From Gigantopelta aegis (taxonomy: Eukaryota; Mollusca; Gastropoda; Neomphalida; Peltospiridae): a stretch of 64,000 nt of DNA. Where the stretch lies: assembly GCF_016097555.1 (NCBI RefSeq), contig NW_024532763.1, positions 1 to 64,000 on the forward strand, read 5' to 3'. The notes under the pieces are model-generated. The model had not been told where the DNA came from. It saw only the letters and a program-made list of their open reading frames with translations, and did not search any database. How positions within the stretch are numbered: position 1 is the stretch's first letter; each line of letters begins with the position of its first letter. The translations under genes were made by a program, and so were the position numbers. Shown here piece after piece: positions 19,690 through 59,375 of this stretch.

Positions 19690-22600
19690 CCAAACATCCT
19701 TGTCCAATTGATACCATAAAACGACAATCAATCTTTGTCCTGTGCTGTCCTAAGTAAGTGGGAAGATAGAACTGTAGCCATTTTCTTTATTTCTCTTTCA
19801 TCACAAATATACCAGATACATGCGGAGGTGTGTAGTAAGTTGCTGGGGGTATCCATAGCAACCTGGTTTACATTCTTTAATGAGTCTAATGGCACGAGAA
19901 CAGAAGGACGGTCTCTGTCCCTATCAAGAGCTCATTGATGTCATATTAAAAGAGGAGGACTGTAAGTGAAAAAGAGAAAAGTTTTTATAAAACAGCGGCT
20001 CCAAAGTAATATGTGATCATTATACTATCACATGATGGACTTGGGTCACTGAACAATAGACTACATGTAAAGCCAAATATCAATCATTACACTATCTACT
20101 ACATAAATATTGATTTTGTAAATCACTTTTAAAATATATATATATATCTCATTGTTTAACACACATAAATTTACATGCCCTCTTATGACACTACTTTAAT
20201 AAATGTATATAATACAGCTATGATATTGACTGAACTACACAACTAGGAAATGTTTGTGGATTATTTTGGTACCACATTATAATTGGAAATTAAACAAAGC
20301 TAAGATAAATACTGGGGTTAAAAAATTGTTACAGTTCAAAGGTCAAAGTAATCTAAGGGTCAATTATATGTATAAATTACATACCATCTAATACTCTGCC
20401 AATATTTCAAGGTTGTCTTGTAGCCACATCTATTGGCACACAGAACTGCTATGCTCATTTTATCTCTGATCAATACAAACATAGTTGATTCTTAGGAGAC
20501 AAAGTCATCTTGGACACAGTAGATGTGGGCGGAGTGTATACCATATTTCAAGTTTAACAACATGTGTAGTACGTTTTACTGTAGTTTGGCGCCATGCATT
20601 CGAATGCTTAAAGGAAATTCCCACACTCAATGGCTGCCACGTCGCATCCACACCACACTCCAAGCTGGTCTCAATCTTGTGGATCATTTCATAGACATTA
20701 ACTGTGATGTAAACACTTTGTAAGTTAGCACAATAACAGCTGCTTATCCCCACTACCTAAATTGGACAGGTTGGCTTTGACAAAATGTCCATACCCATCA
20801 CTGAAGCCGAGCACAACAGGTCTGTGGTTGTATGTAGCGGATATAAAAATGACGTTGCCATGGTGATAGGTTTGGCCACAGCAATTGACGGTGATTTGCT
20901 GAGGTGGTTCCTTTTTTCGAATAGTTAGCACATTCCACCTTCTCTTCAACAAATATAGTCATATCTGTTGATACATAAAAGTGCTGTGATAGCTTTTGAC
21001 TTTTGTCAATTATCTGACATGAAAGAGTTAAAAATAAGCAATACAGTGTAATGAAAGGGTTAAAATTATAACATACATACATACCTACATAATATTAACA
21101 CTGTGTATATGTGCATGTATGATATGCTAGACTAGATTACAGACTTAAGAAGTTTTAAAGACATCCTGTTAGTTTCGCCATATAACAACTTTCAGCTGCT
21201 ATTACTTGAGACGATGTCTCCTGTTTAAGTGCAACATAAAATGTAAGAGGTTCTCGATCAGGGACTAGTGCATATGGGTCACAGAGCTATCAGTACTGAT
21301 TTGATAAGCATCAAGGAAGTGACACATGTTCTCAGAAGGTAACTGAAAATTCTAAGAGACAAATAAAGAACAGCTGTCTTATACAAATGGATGATCATAG
21401 ATGTATGATGGATGGATAGGTTTTAGATGGTATCTTACTTCTTTACATAGAGGCCAGTGACATTTTCTAAGAAGTCTTAATAATAAGAGCTGACGGTCTT
21501 GTATTGAAGTATTGTTCCAACATTGTTCCAAACAAAGATAAAGTGGCACAGGGTAAGGAGGATCCTAGCATGTTAAAATGTAGAGAGATAATTGGCCATT
21601 ATATGAAAATATAGTGTAAAAGGGACAGGTATAAGAGAAAGGATGGACAGATGATAGTGTAAAATGGACAGATATAAAGGAAAGGGTGGACAGATGATAG
21701 TGTAAATGGGACAGATATAAGAGAAAGGATGGACAGATGACAGTGTAAAATGGAAGGTATAAGAGAAAGGATGGACAGATGATAGTGTCAAATGGACGCT
21801 ATAAAGGAAAGGATGGACAGATGATAGTGTAAAATGGACAATTATAAGAGAAAGGATGGACAGATGATAGTGTAAAAGGACAGATATAAGAGAAAGGATG
21901 GCAGATGATAGTGTAAAATGGACAGCTATAAGAGAAAGGATGGACAGATGATAGTTAAAATGGACAGATATAAGAGAAAGGATGGACAGATGATAGTGTA
22001 AAAGGACAGCTATAAAGGAAAGGATGGACAGATGATAGTGTAAAATGGACAGGTATAAGAGAAAGGATGGACAGATGATAGTGTAAAATGGACAGCTATA
22101 AAGGAAAGGATGGACAGATGATAGTGTAAAATGGACAGATATAAGAGAAAGGATGGACAGATGACAGTGTAAAATGGACAGGTATAAGAGAAAGGATGGG
22201 ACAGATGATAGTGTAAATGGACAGCTATAAAGGAAAGGATGGACAGATGATAGTGTAAAATGGACAGGTATAAGAGAAAGGAGGGACAGATGATAGTGTA
22301 AAAATGGACAGGTATAAGAGAAAGGATGGACAGATGATAGTGTAAAATGGACAGGTATAAGAGAAAGGATGGACAGATGATAGTGTAAAATGGACAGATA
22401 TAAGAGAAAGGATGACAGATGATAGTGTAAAATGGACAGGTATAAGAGAAAGGATGGACAGATGATAGTGTAAAAATGGACAGCTATAAAGGAAAGGATG
22501 GACAGATGATAGTGTAAAATGGAAGGTATAAGAGAAAGATGGACAGATGGATAGTGTAAAATGGACAGTATAAAGGAAAGATGGACAGATGATAGTGTAA

Positions 22601-25600
22601 AATGGACAGGTATAAGAGAAAGGATGGACAGATGATAGTGTAAAATGGACAGATATAAGAGAAAGGATGGACAGATGATAGTGTAAAATGGACAGGTATA
22701 AAGGAAAGGATGGACAGATGATAGTGTAAAATGGACAGGTATAAAGGAAAGGATGGACAGATGATAGTGTAAAATGGACAGGTATAAAGGAAAGGATGGA
22801 CAGATGATAGTGTAAAATGGACAGGTATAAGAGAAAGGATGGACAGATGATAGTGTAAAATGGACAGATATAAGAGAAAGGATGGACAGATGATAGTGTA
22901 AAATGGACAGGTATAAGAGAAAGGATGGAAGATGATAGTGTAAAATGGACAGATATAAGAGAAAGGATGGACAGATGATAGTGTAAAATGGACAGGCAAT
23001 AAAGGAAAGGATGGACAGATGATAGTGTAAAATGGACAGGTATAAGAGAAAGGATGGACAGATGATAGTGTAAAATGGACAGCTATAAAGGAAAGGATGG
23101 ACAGATGATAGTGTAAAATGGACAGGTATAAGAGAAAGGATGGACAGATGACAGTGTAAAATGGACAGGTATAAAGGAAAGGATGGACAGATGATAGTGT
23201 AAAATGGACAGATATAAGAGAAAGGATGGACAGATGATAGTGTAAAATGGACAGATATAAAGGAAAGGATGGACAGATGATAGTGTAAAATGGACAATTA
23301 TAAGAGAAAGGATGGACAGATGATAGTGTAAAATGGACAGATATAAGAGAAAGGATGGACAGATGATAGTGTAAAATGGAAGCTATAAGGAAAGGATGGA
23401 CAGATGATAGTGTAAAATGGACAATTATAAGAGAAAGGATGGCAGATGATAGTGTAAATGGACAGATATAAGAGAAAGGTGGACAGATGATAGTGTAAAA
23501 TGGGACGCTATAAGAGAAAGGAGGACAGATGATAGTTGTAAAATGGACAGATATAAGAGAAAGGATGGGACAGTGGATAGTGTAAAATGGACAGCTATAA
23601 AGAGAAAAGGATGGACAGATGATAGGTGTAAAATGGACAGCTATAAAGGAAAGGATTGAGGACAGATGATAGGGGTAAAATGGACAGCTATAAAGGAAAG
23701 GATGGACAGATGATAGTGTAAAATGGACAGCTATAAAGGAAAGGATGGACAGATGATAGTGGTTAAATGGACAGCTATAAAGGAAAGGATGGACAGATGA
23801 TAGTGTAAAATGGACAAGTAAGGATGGATTAGAAAAAGTACAAGAATAGAGACTTACTTGAACTTAAAGATAATGGAGTACTTTAATAAAAGTTACTTTA
23901 GAATGAAATGGAGGTCTCCAATTTCTCTTGATCGGGTCTTGAATCTTGCTCTGACAATCCCGAGGGGGAAGTCCCCTTAACGTCATGAGCTCATAGAGAC
24001 AAAGAGCAAGACAGAAAATGTCCACCTAAAGGAAGAGAGACCACCATTAGTAATATCAGTATTGCTAATATCAGTATTGTTTAATATCACCATAGTAATA
24101 TCAGTATTGTTAATATCAGTATTGGTAAAATCACCATTAGTAATATCAGTATGTTAATATCAGTATTGGTAACTATCAGTATTTGTTAATATCAGTATTG
24201 GTAATATCACTATACAACATTAAATCTCCAAATAATTACTAACAGTTTTGTACCTTCTCAGTAATTTTGCTATCAAATCGTAGACATTCTGGAGCAAATC
24301 GTTGATCCCAATTGTATCAATATTGTGAGCAGTGGATTAACACATACTCCCATATCTCCTAACTTAACAAGTACTTCCTATCTCCATTTTTCAGGTAGGC
24401 AGAACAGAACATCGTCCACGATCTTGCAATCATAACAACAACGATGATCCATTCTTGGAAACCTGTAGCATAAATGCAAATAATAGTTCAAGCTATATAG
24501 ACTCTCTTCTCTCTCTCTCTCTCTCTTTTCTCCCCTCTCTCTTTCTCTCATTACCTAAAAGCCAGTATATGCCTAAGTTTCAGGTCACTGTGTATAATAA
24601 CCAATGGGAGGAGTATGAAGATAATGGAGGCCATCAGTCACCTTACAGTGTGTATATAGTGAAGTGTCATTGTTGCTAATAAGTGCTCAGCTAGTACAAC
24701 TGACCTGTAAGAGTATCAAGTAGAGAGAAACAGGACAAAAATGAACAATTTGTTTCCTGTGACATTTCCTAATCCTCTCCAAAGCTCATTAATGGAGCCC
24801 ATTCTAATATGAAAGATGAAGGGTTAGTGAGTAGTCCAACGAACTTCACAACAAAGTTATGATCAAGTACGCTCAGTGTGTTGAGCTCATATCTCATATC
24901 TGCATATGATTTGAACAACTCTAGTTCGGCATCATAATCCATGTCAGTGAACGAAATTCCTTAACAGCAACCTCAGGTATGCATCAAAGTTGTACTACAT
25001 GGATATACAATACATAGACAGAGAGACAGACAAGATAGAAAGACAGACAGATCGTACCTGCATTTGCATTATCTTGTGATAAACAACACCGAAACATCCT
25101 GAGCCAATAGGACTACCGTCACTCTTGGAGGATCTCTTTAATGCACGTACGTTAATCTTCCATGTTGAAAGATCATTGAATGTCTGTAAAGAAAAAAATT
25201 GAAGGTTCATCTAAAAATAGTAACAAACATACAACCAGTCTAAAAATAGTAACAAATGTCATAGAACTCACAATGTCTGGGGACTAGGAATTCCAGAGCA
25301 TATCATTTTACATTGGGGACATTGGATATAGTTGCTAGTCATGCTAGAACGGGGTAATACATTGGTCAATCGAGAATACAATGATAACATCATCACCAAT
25401 TTTTGTATTGACAGTTTGAGGCTTTGCCACTGACATACCACGAAGTCTGTGGATAGCCGCTGGTACTGGGATTATGTTGCATTCCAAGGGTCTCACGACA
25501 ATCCTTTTCTCCGAAACATATTGGACAAGGGACAACATGAATCATGTCACCAATTGTATATATACCATTCTGGCTAATTGCTCACAGTGACCTTTGAGAA

Positions 25601-51300: not shown

Positions 51301-54300
51301 TGTAATTGCTGTTATCTCTTGGTTTTAATTTTAGGGACTTTGGATGAAAGATCTATTAAAACGTGGTATTGCTGTACATCATAGTGGTATATTACCAATT
51401 ATTAAAGAGGTATGTGGTATATTACCAATTATTAAAGAGGTATGTGGTATATTACCAATTATTAAAGAGGTATGTGGTATATTACCAATTATTAAAGAGG
51501 TATGTGATATTACCAATTATTAAAGAGGTATGTGGTAGATTACCAATTATTAAAGAGGTATGTGGTATATTACCATTATTAAAGAGGTATGAGATATATT
51601 AATAAAAAGGTAGTTAGTATATATTAACACACTATGACTATGAGTTAATTACAGCTGGTTAGCTTAAACTTGATCTCATTTTGTTAGGTTGTGGAAATGT
51701 TATTTGCCAAGGTTTAGTAAAGGTATGTAAAAAAATTGTAATATAATTTGAATTGTAAGGTTAATAATAATAATAGAATGAGTATTTTGACTTCAAATTT
51801 TGAATGACTTCAAATTTTTGCTATGATTTATAATTACAAGAGCCCATAGTTTCACTAAAGAGGGGTGAGTCTTGTTATTTAGTATTTTATATTTAATTAT
51901 CAGTATTGATTTTAAAATTACTTTTAGTTATTATTTGCTACGGAAACATTTGCAATGGGTGTCAATATGCCGGCTAGAACAGTGGCCTTTGATTCTATGA
52001 GAAAAACACGATGGAGTACGAATGAGAGATCTCTATACATGGTCAGTGACCACATGATCATCACATGATTAGTGGATAACGATGTTATAGGAGAGTATAT
52101 ACAAATGGCAGGAAGAGCCGGAAGAAGAGGCAAAGACTCCACAGGGACTGTTATTATTCTCTGCAAAGCTGACATTCCAGAGTCCAGTGAACTCCACAAG
52201 ATGATACTGGTCAGTTTAGTTTTTGATGACTCTGTTGCTATGGTAACATTTGTGTTTTAGGGTATTCCAACAACATTGGTTTCACAGTTTAGATTGACGT
52301 ACACAATGGTTACTAAACATTATGAGACTGCCAACATTGAGGTAAATAAAACAATAACTCCTTTTAATGTAAACATTTTTAATAAATTTCTGTTAGAGTT
52401 GAAGATGTTATGAAGAAAAGTTTTGCCGAATTAGATTCTATAAAATACCAAGATGACCGTCAAGAAAAACTTGAAGCATTGCAACAGACAATGTCATCAT
52501 TAGATGGATTGTATTGTCCTGTATGTATCACTGATATCGATCAGTATTATCAGTCTTGTGATCAGTTACAGAAATTAAAGAAGAAAATGCAGGTATGAAT
52601 GGATGGATGGACAGATAAATTGATCTATACTTTTTGTGATATAGGAGTTGCCTCTTAGGAAATGTACACTTTCAAAAAGCTCTTGCTCCTGGTCATGTGA
52701 TATAGTCATGTGGACAAATAAATACAAGTATGGTCTAGGAATTATTTTACAAGAAAATGCAAAAAAGAACAATGACCACACCTACATAGTACTCATGTTA
52801 TGTAACCGTGATGATGAGTCTGAAAATGGTGCAACTTCATTGGTCAATTTTGATCCTGATCATGTGATCCCTTTTGAAGCCATGACGAATATGTTTAAAC
52901 CCGAAGGAGAGGTCGGGCACATTGTTGCTGAGGTCAAGGTCACATAATAATTGCTGTAACCAAGAATGTAATATCAGTGGATACTAAAAGAATAATTAAT
53001 GATTATAAGGAAAGGCAACTCCCCCGATTCAAGTCAGTCATGTGACTCTCATGTGATAGTGGTATTATATCACATGATATTAATTCATTAGGGATAGATC
53101 TCCTATTCCAGACACAGTTAAGACAGTTGAGATGTTAAGACAATTGTCTGATGGTACCTATAAAGGATCTGGGACTATTAGATCCAATAGCAACCTTGAA
53201 CGATGAACAGTTTGGATTATGTGGAGATGAAGAGTGATAAGGAGAGAATTGAGGGGACCCCTGTTGTGTTATACATGTATTAAATGTCCGCAATTCTTGG
53301 AACATGTAAGAGTGCTATATTTGAATGGATAAGTCTTGAATAGTGATAATGTAGATTGACAGTTATAATTGTATTTATTGTAGTTTGAAAAGGCACGTAC
53401 TAAAGCTGTCCTTCAAGACCAGCTGTCTGTACTGAGATACAAGTTGTCAGAGAACAGTCTTCAGTTGTTACCAGAATATTACCAGAAACTAGATGTAAGA
53501 TCATTTGTTGTTAAAAGTATCTTCAATTTATTTCATGTTGACAGGTTTGAAACATTTAATATATCAGTGAAGAAAATGGCACAGTAAAATTGAAAGGTCG
53601 TGTAGCATGTGAGATTCATACTCAGGAGATAATGATCACTGAACTATTTGTTTCGAAACGCTCTGGAGGGATTTGAACCGGCTGAAGTGGCAGCTTTACT
53701 ATCCAGTATGGTATTTCAACAGGTATAGTATTAGACGATGACTGTCATATTTTAATTTTCTTTATATTTTAGAGTAAATGTAGTGAACCAAACTATACTG
53801 AAAGATTAACTGAGGTAAGTCTCAAACTAGTGAGGCAGTCTCAGACCTGTTCTGAGTTCATGTAGTATAAGTATGAAATTATGAAATCTATACTAACAGG
53901 GCAAACAAATGATATTGAGTATTGCTGAAGAGATAGCTCGTGTAGAAATGCATATCGATTAGAAACGTCAGTAGAAGACTATCAGAAAGAATTCAAGTTT
54001 GGATTAGTGGAAGTTGTTTATGAATGGGCCAAAGGACAGGTAAAGGTATTAGGAATGAGACTTTTATACATATCAGTATGGGAATGAGACCTATAACTTG
54101 TGAGTATGGGAATGAAACTTGACTCTTAAATTGATATTTTAGATTATAAGCAACTTTTAATTTTAGGAATTTGTCAAAATAATTGAGTTGACTGATGTAT
54201 TAGAAGGTATGTTGTCTAACTACAAGCTACATCATGTGATTATGACATGTTATTCATATATCATAGGTGTGATAGTCAAGTGTATTCAACGTCTTGATGA

Positions 54301-54434
54301 ACTTTGCCGCGATATTGGCAAAGCTGCCCGACTAGTAGGCGACCACGATTGGCTAGCCTCATGCAAGAAGTCTCAACATTGATCAGAAGAGATCTATTAG
54401 GAGTAGTATTGCTGCTAGTCTTTACACAATATAA
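48360..54434 (+). CDS. SKIC2: SKI2-type RNA helicase of the Ski complex
   Basis: SKI2 (SKIV2L) is the DExH helicase that threads mRNA into the cytoplasmic exosome. The N-terminal region is recognisable: [11 protein letters not shown] (48405), [15 protein letters not shown] (48700), THFPFWPG (48890). The core reads [20 protein letters not shown] (49655), AAHTSAGKT (motif I, 49725), [13 protein letters not shown] (49925), [20 protein letters not shown] (motif II DEVH, 50050-50105), [19 protein letters not shown] (50315), [16 protein letters not shown] (51090), [11 protein letters not shown] (51377), [20 protein letters not shown] (51930) and [20 protein letters not shown] (motif VI, 52090). The arch and C-terminal domain follow, ending [20 protein letters not shown] (54280) and IAASLYTI with a stop at 54434. 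Coverage matches the whole family length. The 158-codon minus frame at 48869-49345 is a shadow of this gene. The first exon is not certain. Confidence 0.93.
50640..50935 (+). repeat. ~30-bp minisatellite in a SKI2 intron
   Basis: Eight or nine units of gataatttcattcctatact followed by actgatatact. The array abuts the acceptor of the exon that begins at about 50935. Confidence 0.92.
51410..51600 (+). repeat. 30-bp tandem repeat containing a coding exon end and its 5' splice site
   Basis: The unit is gtatgtggtatattaccaat followed by tattaaagag. The SKI2 exon ends [11 protein letters not shown] at 51409 followed by gtatgt. The sequence from that donor through a copied GILPIIKE coding block repeats six more times, giving seven aaagag/gtatg junctions. 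The next exon ([12 protein letters not shown]) begins at about 51688. The first full units are exactly 30 bases and free of stops in frame. Confidence 0.95.
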
Positions 54435-54860
54435 ATAGAATCACTTTAAAACACATGTGTTTTTGACATTTTTTCTACCTAATATAGAGTAGTCATTCAG
54501 GTAAACAATTGTTACAAATTTTATTTCCCTTTTTGTTTAATTCATTTATATAATGCAATATTTTTTGTTATGATGTTTTTAACAATTCCTGATATGAAAT
54601 TTGTAGGTTCTTCCCAAGGTATGTATTGGCTTTTAAAGACATTACTTTTCTATAATATTTGAGCAAGATAGGGTCTTTGACACAAGTTTCTTAACTTCTT
54701 AAACAATTGTTGTTCGGTGTTATATAAACATTTGTTCTGAAAATGAAAAGTCGATAACATCCAATGTAGGGAGAATGTTTTTAACAGTATTCACTGAAAT
54801 AGATAAAGTAAGGCTCAAATTATGTCTTTCATTATGTCTCTGATTTCAGGAGCCTCATTT
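54435..54860. other. spacer between SKI2 and GTDC1 3' ends
   Basis: AT-rich, convergent 3' flanks. No gene, RNA or repeat recognised. Confidence 0.5.
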
Positions 54861-54872
54861 CATCAATGTGTT

Positions 54873-56386
54873 TTAGTGAATTGTTAATTCCTCCCAAGTG
54901 ATGTAAGTTTGTGAAATGTTATGGTAAGTATCAGTCTTGTCTGTATAAATGTCCTCATGCAACATAGCCTCAGACCTATACACTGAGTCATAGTGTATAG
55001 GTTTGAGGCTATGTTGCATTACCTGATAGATTTCAGGATAGACCAATCTGTTAGGGCATAGTGGATAACATCCACAACAAGTTGCTTCTAACCTAAAATT
55101 TAAACTACCTATCATATCCACAATGGTATATCAAATCTTACATTGCTACACCAAAAAACTCATGTTTAGCTGTTGATATGACTACATCAGCTTCATGGAG
55201 TACACTCCAATAATCTTCTTTGCTGACTGGTCCACAGTGGAGAAGACGAGGTCCCAACATAGGAAATATGTCTTGAAAACAGACAAGTTGAAAAAGAAAG
55301 ATAAGTATTTTTTTGCCAATATTATCAGACTTTATAATCAAGTATATCTGTAAACCTGGAATATCTTCAGTGTGGTCTCCTAATATTGATATTCTAAATT
55401 TTAGATCTGCTACCAACAATTTTTGCAGTACTGAGGCACAACTCTTCTGGTCCTTTGTCATGTTTTCCCTACAAAGTAAAGGATAGTTAGAAAAGTCATT
55501 AAGTACTTTAAGATCTGTGAATGCACTAATAGTCTAATACCATCTGTGAGGCCATACAATATGGAGGGACTTTTGCTGTGTTAGTGAGTCTATACCAGAA
55601 GTTTGATGATCACATGGTGGTTCATTCATTGTCCAAGTCATTGTTTGTTGAGCAAGTATTAATAACTTTAATTGTTGGCGATGAATTTATGTCTGTCATT
55701 AAAACTTGTTCTGGTATTTCCAGTGGATAATACAACACACTACATTTTGGTCTGATCTTATCAAACAGACCACTAGGTCGAAAATCTGGCATCAATTTCA
55801 AAATGGATCAATGTTTTCAAGAAATGATGTCATATTGAAATGAGAAATTAAAGACGATTTTATTGGCAACAAGACTAGAGAATGAATGAGGACTGCTAAT
55901 GTCATCAAAATAGTCAGTGTTGATCTTACCATGATAGTATCTGATTATATCCATATTGAAAATCTCTCTCTTGTTGTTTTCTAACAGGATAGATAAGTTG
56001 ATTTTCATGAAAGTAGAGTATCTTATGGAGTTTATTCAAATCAGGCCGAAGAGCTACTAACTCACACAAATTAAGTACACTGCTAGCAAAGAGTATCCTG
56101 AATAAAGAATAACCCACAGAGATCATTACTTCATCTTAACATACTAACTTGTATTGATGTTCTTGAGGTAATTGCTCTGCAAAAATACAATGCTGAAGTT
56201 CTCATTCTCCATGTGCCACTTACTGGCTGGAAGAGAATAGATATCACCTTCATAGTCTCTTTGTAACAAGGTAATCAGCTGCTTATGAGAGCCACCATAA
56301 TAAGGTTCAAGATATAATATTTTAGAAGAATCCACAGCAAAATGGAGAGTAGTTGAGCGGTCTGGTGTTCGAGATTGTGTTGCCAT
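54873..56386 (-). CDS. GTDC1: GTDC1/QTMAN-like tRNA-queuosine mannosyltransferase
   Basis: The family transfers mannose to queuosine in tRNA-Asp and carries a GT-B type glycosyltransferase fold. The start exon reads MATQSRTPDRSTTLHFAVDS then KILYLEPYYGGSHKQLI (human IIEAFYGGSHKQLV). It is followed by SLPASKWHM (56215), ASSVLNLCELVALRPDLNKL and HKILYFHENQLIYPV (56095-55975), QERDFQYGYNQILS, and in the C-terminal lobe FRISILGDHTEDIPG (55395), LLHCGPVSKEDYWSVLHEAD and VVISTAKHEFFGVAM (55245-55140), CCGCYPLCPNRLVYPEIYQ (55085-55025). The match to the human protein is close in both lobes. The middle has indels. The region after YPEIYQ is not recognisable, so the true C-terminus is uncertain. It faces eRF1 head-to-head. 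Confidence 0.9.
54941..55022 (-). ncRNA. candidate mirtron: short intron folding into a 28-bp hairpin
   Basis: Directly after the codons for YPEIYQ the minus strand reads gtaatgcaac..., a fair 5' splice site, and 82 bases later ...tttatacag, a fair acceptor. Between them 54957-54984 and 54992-55019 are inverted copies over 28 bases with one G/A difference (a G-U wobble in RNA from one strand) and a 7-base loop. The hairpin starts two bases inside the donor and leaves a tail of about 16 bases before the acceptor. A hairpin of this size released by splicing would resemble a tailed mirtron. A fold-back assembly artefact or a recent inverted duplication would look the same. Splicing and processing are inference. 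Confidence 0.45.
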
Positions 56387-58325
<1,939 letters not shown>

Positions 58326-58650: not shown

Positions 58651-58789
58651 ATAAAATTCTTTGTTAGTTTAATGATTGTAATACTAATTGTATATACAGC
58701 TTAATCAAATTCACGGACCAGTTCTACTGACATTTAACATAATTTATTAAATAGATTTATAAAAATAACAAAAAAAACCCTTGTGTGTT

Positions 58790-59165
58790 GCCCAAACGAT
58801 TCCTACTCGCTCACCCACTCAGGCTTCCACTTAGGCTCCAGGATTCCCTGCTATTGCTAGCTGGGACCGCCACCTGGCTTGGTAACCCTCGTCTTCGCGA
58901 GGTAATCCTGGCTGGAGCGTCGCCCTAACTTAAAACCAGCCGTACGGGATTCCAGCTCTTAGGGAATGTCGCATTCAGGAACCGGGAACCACAAATACAC
59001 CAGCCTCATCTCGTTTAAAGGGAGACTACCAGCCCTATCCTAGTCGGCCTTTCGGATATCCGTAGAGTATGCTGGTAACCATCTCAGAGGTCTGATGCAT
59101 TGCAGAACGCTGGCCCACAACACACTGGCACTCATGACTGGTTCAGTTTCTTTATATATGTACGT
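58790..59165 (+). repeat. GC-rich structured repeat, long copy
   Basis: About 370 bases much richer in GC than the surroundings, beginning near cccaaacgattcctactcgc. It contains ctgctattgctagctggg, the self-complementary cctcgtcttcgcgagg, tcctggctggagcgtcgccc and ggcctttcggatatccgtag, with no open frame. It may be a dispersed repeat, a SINE-like element or a structured RNA. No tRNA boxes or known RNA fold recognised. Confidence 0.5.
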
Positions 59166-59375
59166 CAGATTTTGTCTTCGGGCTCTTGTGGGTGGGGCGC
59201 GCTGTGAACCGCTATGAATCTCATTAACGGCAATTCATGAATATGATATACCGGTATCAAAAAATTGAGAAGGCTGTTAAAAAATACGTTTTTAATTGTA
59301 TTTTTAATATCATGTCTTTATTTTTTTATTATAACTAAATTATTAATTCATACAGCAAAAGACAATGTTGATTCT

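Follow-up and report, generated by a model that had tools for sequence, protein, structure and literature searches.

An intron of the tRNA-sugar enzyme gene QTMAN, encoded on the minus strand of the 64,000-nucleotide stretch of DNA analyzed here (the window), contains a near-perfect inverted repeat immediately inside its splice donor. The most suitable explanation is that this is a young repeat in an otherwise ordinary intron, likely born through template switching and without a selected function, and we consider this reading probable.

The inverted repeat is present in the sequence, and both the inverted-repeat list and the predicted fold agree with the original prediction regarding the 28-base arms with one difference, the 7-base loop and their coordinates. 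The two arms, 28 nt each and 7 nt apart, are 96% complementary and are arranged as follows:

54992..55019, minus strand: 5' arm of the hairpin (intron positions 4-31)
54985..54991, minus strand: 7-base loop of the hairpin
54957..54984, minus strand: 3' arm of the hairpin (intron positions 39-66)

On the sense (minus) strand the predicted fold has an energy of -44.6 kcal/mol (z -9.1, with 0 of 200 shuffles equally stable) and comprises 27 pairs over 28 positions with a single A.C mismatch. This mismatch corresponds to a G.U on the plus strand, which consequently is predicted to form 29 pairs (-48.7 kcal/mol, z -11.1). In this sense-strand fold the first three intron bases lie unpaired. The hairpin, which fills intron positions 4-66, is retained in both the best and the centroid structures when 285 of the 286 nt of the intron are folded. 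It is the sole match in the 64,000 bases when arms of 16 bases or more are sought with at most one mismatch and a loop of at most 40, and the same scan of 12 first-order Markov controls recovered none. The 13 other inverted pairs of the window (at least 20 nt, at most 300 bases apart) are only 70-90% complementary. When 20 further loci of the assembly were scanned for arms of 18 bases or more (193,039 bases in total, including 7,368 N), the matches listed, no more than three for each locus, comprised one hairpin with 18-base arms and, in two of the loci, runs of AT repeats.

The host gene is identified as QTMAN by the Pfam profile PF12038, which matches the joined exon pieces with E = 3.5e-57 (an X standing at most of the breaks) and three separate exons above the family cut-off without any joining. 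This is consistent with its earlier identification as GTDC1, which we take to be the older name of QTMAN. A second copy of the gene is found on contig C9 (84.9 Mb), where the three profile matches are free of internal stops; in the window, one of the three contains two stops. The best window matches of the eight C9 exon pieces lie in gene order in 8 of 8 cases, with E-values from 9e-33 to 7e-5 against a 4.5-kb window stretch (tblastn). The C9 piece ending in YPEIF matches 55091-55026, and the exon upstream of the intron shows 77% identity to it over 22 amino acids (E = 1.4e-11 against the 4.5-kb stretch; tblastn). The downstream exon is recovered at 54733-54662 (58% identity over 24 amino acids; E = 3.2e-9, tblastn, 4.5 kb), and the reverse search of this exon against 29 kb of C9 gives E = 2.35e-7. 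Homology to the C9 copy therefore indicates that the exon resumes in frame at 54736 after cttttcattttcag, and the intron, its borders being set by homology, extends from 55022 to 54737 with a length of 286 nt. The elements of this region are:

55023..55091, minus strand: QTMAN exon ending in ...LEATCCGCYPLCPNRLVYPEIYQ, directly upstream of the intron; its 5' limit is taken from the match
55021..55022, minus strand: GT of the 5' splice site (CAG/GTAATG), placed by frame and by homology on both sides
54941..54942, minus strand: AG of the acceptor first proposed, rejected; its use gives YPEIYQ, 18 residues and a stop, and its pyrimidine tract is poor
54737..54956, minus strand: rest of the intron, a 220-nt 3' tail past the hairpin with a pyrimidine tract
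54737..54738, minus strand: AG of the homology-supported 3' splice site (cttttcattttcag)
54653..54736, minus strand: next QTMAN exon, NKCLYNTEQQLFKKLRNLCQRPYLAQIL; its 3' limit is uncertain and a stop codon follows in frame

Frame and homology thus retain the donor at 55022, directly after YPEIYQ, that had been proposed earlier, and the reading frame does stay open through the hairpin as then noted, up to the stop at 54873-54875. An intron of the C9 copy, 706 nt long by our own count, lies at the corresponding position to within one base, in phase 1 versus phase 0 in the window. In the retained frame, the residues TYITWEELTIH were considered as a duplicate of the last exon and rejected, their alignment score being 31 against 300 shuffles with a mean of 29.4 and a maximum of 59. 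A search of solved structures with the C-terminal piece of QTMAN produced weak matches only (best E = 0.37). In the C9 copy, a GTAVDVDSRLKTCFS-like repeat run shares a 467-residue open frame with the third exon piece.

The original prediction had placed the acceptor in tttatacag at 54941, giving an intron of 82 nt, 55022-54941, interpreted as a conventional mirtron in which both splice sites set the ends of the hairpin. We tried and rejected this candidate: the 3' splice site lies 204 bases further on, at 54737. This leaves 220 nt between the hairpin and the end of the intron, and hence the acceptor does not define where the hairpin ends on its 3' side. GT and AG are indeed found at the places proposed, and the hairpin fills most of the interval between them. 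Yet exon homology goes on at 54736 rather than at 54940, splicing at the nearer AG would append 18 foreign residues and a stop, and a search of the C9 gene region (29 kb) with the peptide so joined gives no convincing match (best E = 1.1). Moreover, pyrimidines make up 44% of the 16 nt before this AG versus 81% before the AG at 54738-54737, and a 16-nt tail would still be left after the hairpin. A third AG, at intron position 229, likewise follows an 81% pyrimidine stretch, but has a stop immediately after it. The homology-based length of 286 nt accordingly replaces the earlier 82 nt, and a conventional mirtron is improbable in the extreme.

The relative ages of the repeat and the intron can be approached through the C9 copy. 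That the arms are 96% complementary with one substitution implies that the repeat is either young or maintained. An intron at nearly the same place in C9, together with the fact that no arm match was reported on that contig (23-base core, at most three mismatches), suggests that the intron is older than the repeat. Furthermore, with its own pyrimidine-rich acceptor and 220-nt tail the intron does not need the hairpin. We infer a template-switch origin, in which a switch during replication would have copied a short stretch as its reverse complement, creating the 28-base repeat in a single step and placing it three bases inside the 5' end of an old, ordinary 286-nt intron. The intron would still be removed normally, and the hairpin would persist in it as a passenger that serves no selected function. 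Within the pre-mRNA, the hairpin would engage intron bases +4 to +6 in pairing, whereby U1 binding may be weakened; as side effects, the intron might sometimes be retained, with the stop at 54873, or Dicer might now and then cut the intron after its debranching. A study of template switching describes the process as a source of perfect stems, including those of microRNA loci such as MIR633 (PMC8794818). Against a repeat without function stands the location of the window's one strong hairpin next to a splice donor: the odds of chance placement within 10 bases after a donor are about 1.6%, given an assumed, uncounted, set of about 100 introns in the window, and this favors some link to splicing. 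The length of the stem also suits a substrate of Dicer alone.

A remnant of a miniature inverted-repeat transposon (MITE) would be compatible in size and shape, and the derivation of a human microRNA family from MITEs has been reported (PMC1784062). However, the 23-base arm core, sought with at most three mismatches in the assembly, where the scaffold's organism may be represented incompletely, has no matches beyond the two arms themselves, as compared with 2 matching places for the control pattern read backwards. Such a lack of a second copy is set against another repeat of the same scaffold, that at 58750-59250, which is carried by many contigs. This repeat has at least 41 matches, namely the window itself, one on C6 and 39 on contigs in the range C255-C3879 (40 of 365 candidates scored), and among the at least 40 further places listed 39 are 93-97% identical and one is an 80% partial match. 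A MITE remnant is therefore highly improbable. The exact 21-base arm core is likewise missing from the IMG/VR viral contigs and from prokaryote genome contigs, both of them collections not meant for animals. Elsewhere in the window, at 21611-23820, there is a 43-base tandem array of about 51 copies with long open stretches on the minus strand.

Alternatively, the hairpin might belong to a Drosha-dependent microRNA residing in the intron, or to a plus-strand microRNA from transcripts running past the neighboring gene, which we take to be a SKI2-like helicase. The 29 pairs of the plus strand, one of them G.U, would be in keeping with this, and the plus strand contains neither AATAAA nor ATTAAA from 54381 to 54960, so that the SKI2-like transcript could extend. 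Additionally, the hairpin is the site of 6 of the 8 sub-threshold Rfam matches near the locus, with a best E of 5e-5. On the other side, the gathering score is not attained for any Rfam family across the window. The strongest Rfam match scores 32 bits where the cut-off is 110, with the long middle of the model left unmatched, which we read as pairing rather than kinship. A search for tRNAs found none. Drosha cuts 11 bp from the base of a stem, and here such a cut would leave only about 17 bp, which is short for a pre-miRNA. Stems processed by Drosha and then Dicer are about 33-35 bp long in bilaterians, although this may not hold in other animals, and at 27 pairs on the sense strand and 29 on the other the present stem falls short of that length. 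By this rule the stem is of a length more fitting for Dicer on its own than for successive cuts by Drosha and Dicer, and a microRNA of either kind seems very improbable. The SKI2-like gene stretch also contains a 30-base tandem repeat of about 7 copies (51384-51601), which is open in frame.

A sequencing or assembly artefact, in which a read folds back on itself, has to be weighed because the scaffold is error-prone. Relative to C9, the reading frame breaks in QTMAN exons 1 and 3, and like breaks are seen in the ETF1-like and SKI2-like helicase genes within 54300-58300. These breaks in coding frames suggest indel errors, as would fit a thinly covered long-read consensus. They do not, however, account for a 28-base repeat whose flanking sequences are unrelated. 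The errors that can be seen take the form of frame breaks, the two arms differ by no indel, and an artefact with an arm of 28 bases, a loop of 7 and flanks unrelated on both sides would require two switches. Fold-back reads normally remain inverted over long stretches. A fold-back artefact is thus unlikely for arms of this length with unrelated flanks, and we regard an artefact as quite improbable.

The owner of the scaffold bears on several of these arguments. The window represents 64 kb of the unplaced scaffold C600 (198,435 bases) in an assembly of 1.15 Gb with sampled contigs of up to 120 Mb. QTMAN and ETF1, the two conserved genes checked, both have diverged second copies on large contigs, namely C9 and C10, which gives the scaffold the appearance of a second organism in the assembly. 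In the ETF1 stretch, 180 of 203 residues are identical between the scaffold and a solved eRF1, presumably the human protein. Over four C10 pieces, the scaffold shares 177 of 208 residues with C10, and C10 shares 177 of 207 with human; when the weakest C10 piece is removed, these values become 141 of 157 and 140 of 156. The scaffold version is hence about equally distant from the C10 and human versions, and another animal fits better than a recent paralogue; an old paralogue could also account for the pattern. In a mitochondrial-like reading on C1045, which we take to be NAD1, positions that we take as conserved carry arginine only when AGR codons are translated as Arg, as they are in the mitochondria of sponges and cnidarians; this bears on C600 only if both share one owner. 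Dinucleotide distances do not cleanly separate the scaffold from chromosome samples, one window piece being nearer to the C7 sample than to other window pieces, and composition therefore lends the second-organism reading no support. Taken together, the above observations suggest that the scaffold stems from a second, possibly non-bilaterian, animal in the assembly, and the "early-branching animal" of the original prediction is plausible. The uncertain owner and the frame breaks weaken both the test for an artefact and any claim regarding small-RNA machinery. A different locus, C6:42729340-42730680, which lies within a contig of chromosome scale, matches the COX1 profile over its full length, contains six TGA codons and is close to frames that are presumably NAD2- and NAD3-like; this is mitochondrial DNA inserted or misplaced in the assembly.

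A 3'-tailed mirtron constitutes a further reading which, judged from sequence, is possible but unlikely. In this case the hairpin would have its 5' end released by splicing and debranching, the 220-nt tail would be shortened by the RNA exosome or another 3'-5' exonuclease, and Dicer would process the stem into a small RNA for loading on Argonaute. The hairpin begins 3 nt past the 5' splice site, at intron position 4 and so within less than 10 nt of it, and a stem with 27 pairs in its 28 positions, closed by a loop of 7 bases, would allow one Dicer cut. In Drosophila mir-1017, splicing sets one end and the exosome removes the 3' tail; the authors consider the base pairing at the donor a possible reason why that intron is retained (PMC10853799). 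By analogy, the pairing of +4 to +6 could entail retention here too. Piwi-domain matches number 23, with 4 on C1058, C1097 and C1247 and the others on C3, C7 and C8; against this, the 3 RNase III matches are all on C4 and C10, and none is found on small scaffolds. In humans, 13 of 17 3'-tailed mirtrons end at most 5 nt from the predicted branch point (PMC4513878), whereas here the usual branch-point zone is far off, the loosely matching A's of the last 60 nt, leaving aside any too near the acceptor, lying 18, 44 and 58 nt from the intron end, or 162-202 nt beyond the hairpin. Yet 26 A's of the intron fit the loose motif, including one 11 nt past the hairpin, which renders this test weak. Mammalian 3'-tailed mirtrons derive from very short introns (PMC4556696), as against the 286 nt seen here, and the unpaired first three intron bases also speak against this reading. 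Its fuller form, namely that a 3'-tailed mirtron of a non-bilaterian animal was recently born by a template switch at the donor, dampens QTMAN splicing and yields a Drosha-free Dicer small RNA, appears distinctly doubtful. At most, the hairpin could feed this rarer kind of splicing-derived small RNA.

The known record outside bilaterians provides few points of comparison. In a search of the ctenophore Mnemiopsis, no mirtron could be called functional among introns of up to 150 nt, and the time at which the mirtron pathway arose was left open (PMC3563456). Titles and abstract openings among the matches listed for sponges (including Amphimedon) and cnidarians (including Nematostella) report no mirtrons; in PMC7935066 and PMC5509036, the word appears respectively in a reference only and in a comment about Drosophila. 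A newly arisen hairpin located precisely at a splice donor would lend itself naturally to testing how mirtrons originate. The present hairpin is a single candidate on a scaffold that is error-prone and whose owner is uncertain, and is thus of value mainly as a lead.

When set beside known systems, the hairpin resembles conventional mirtrons in being intronic and close to the splice donor, but in those the acceptor sets the 3' end of the hairpin, which is not the case in this 286-nt intron. With the 3'-tailed mirtrons, namely mir-1017 and the human examples, it shares the location at the 5' end of an intron of a protein gene, donor bases in or next to the hairpin base, and a long 3' part following the hairpin. 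As a candidate, it differs from them in the long tail and in the distance of the usual branch-point zone from the hairpin. MITE-derived hairpins are similarly short inverted repeats, but occur in multiple copies, none further being found here. Finally, template-switch hairpins such as MIR633 of primates, whose origin has been traced whereas that of the QTMAN repeat is presumed, share with it a near-perfect stem, a short loop and the finding of a single copy (PMC8794818).
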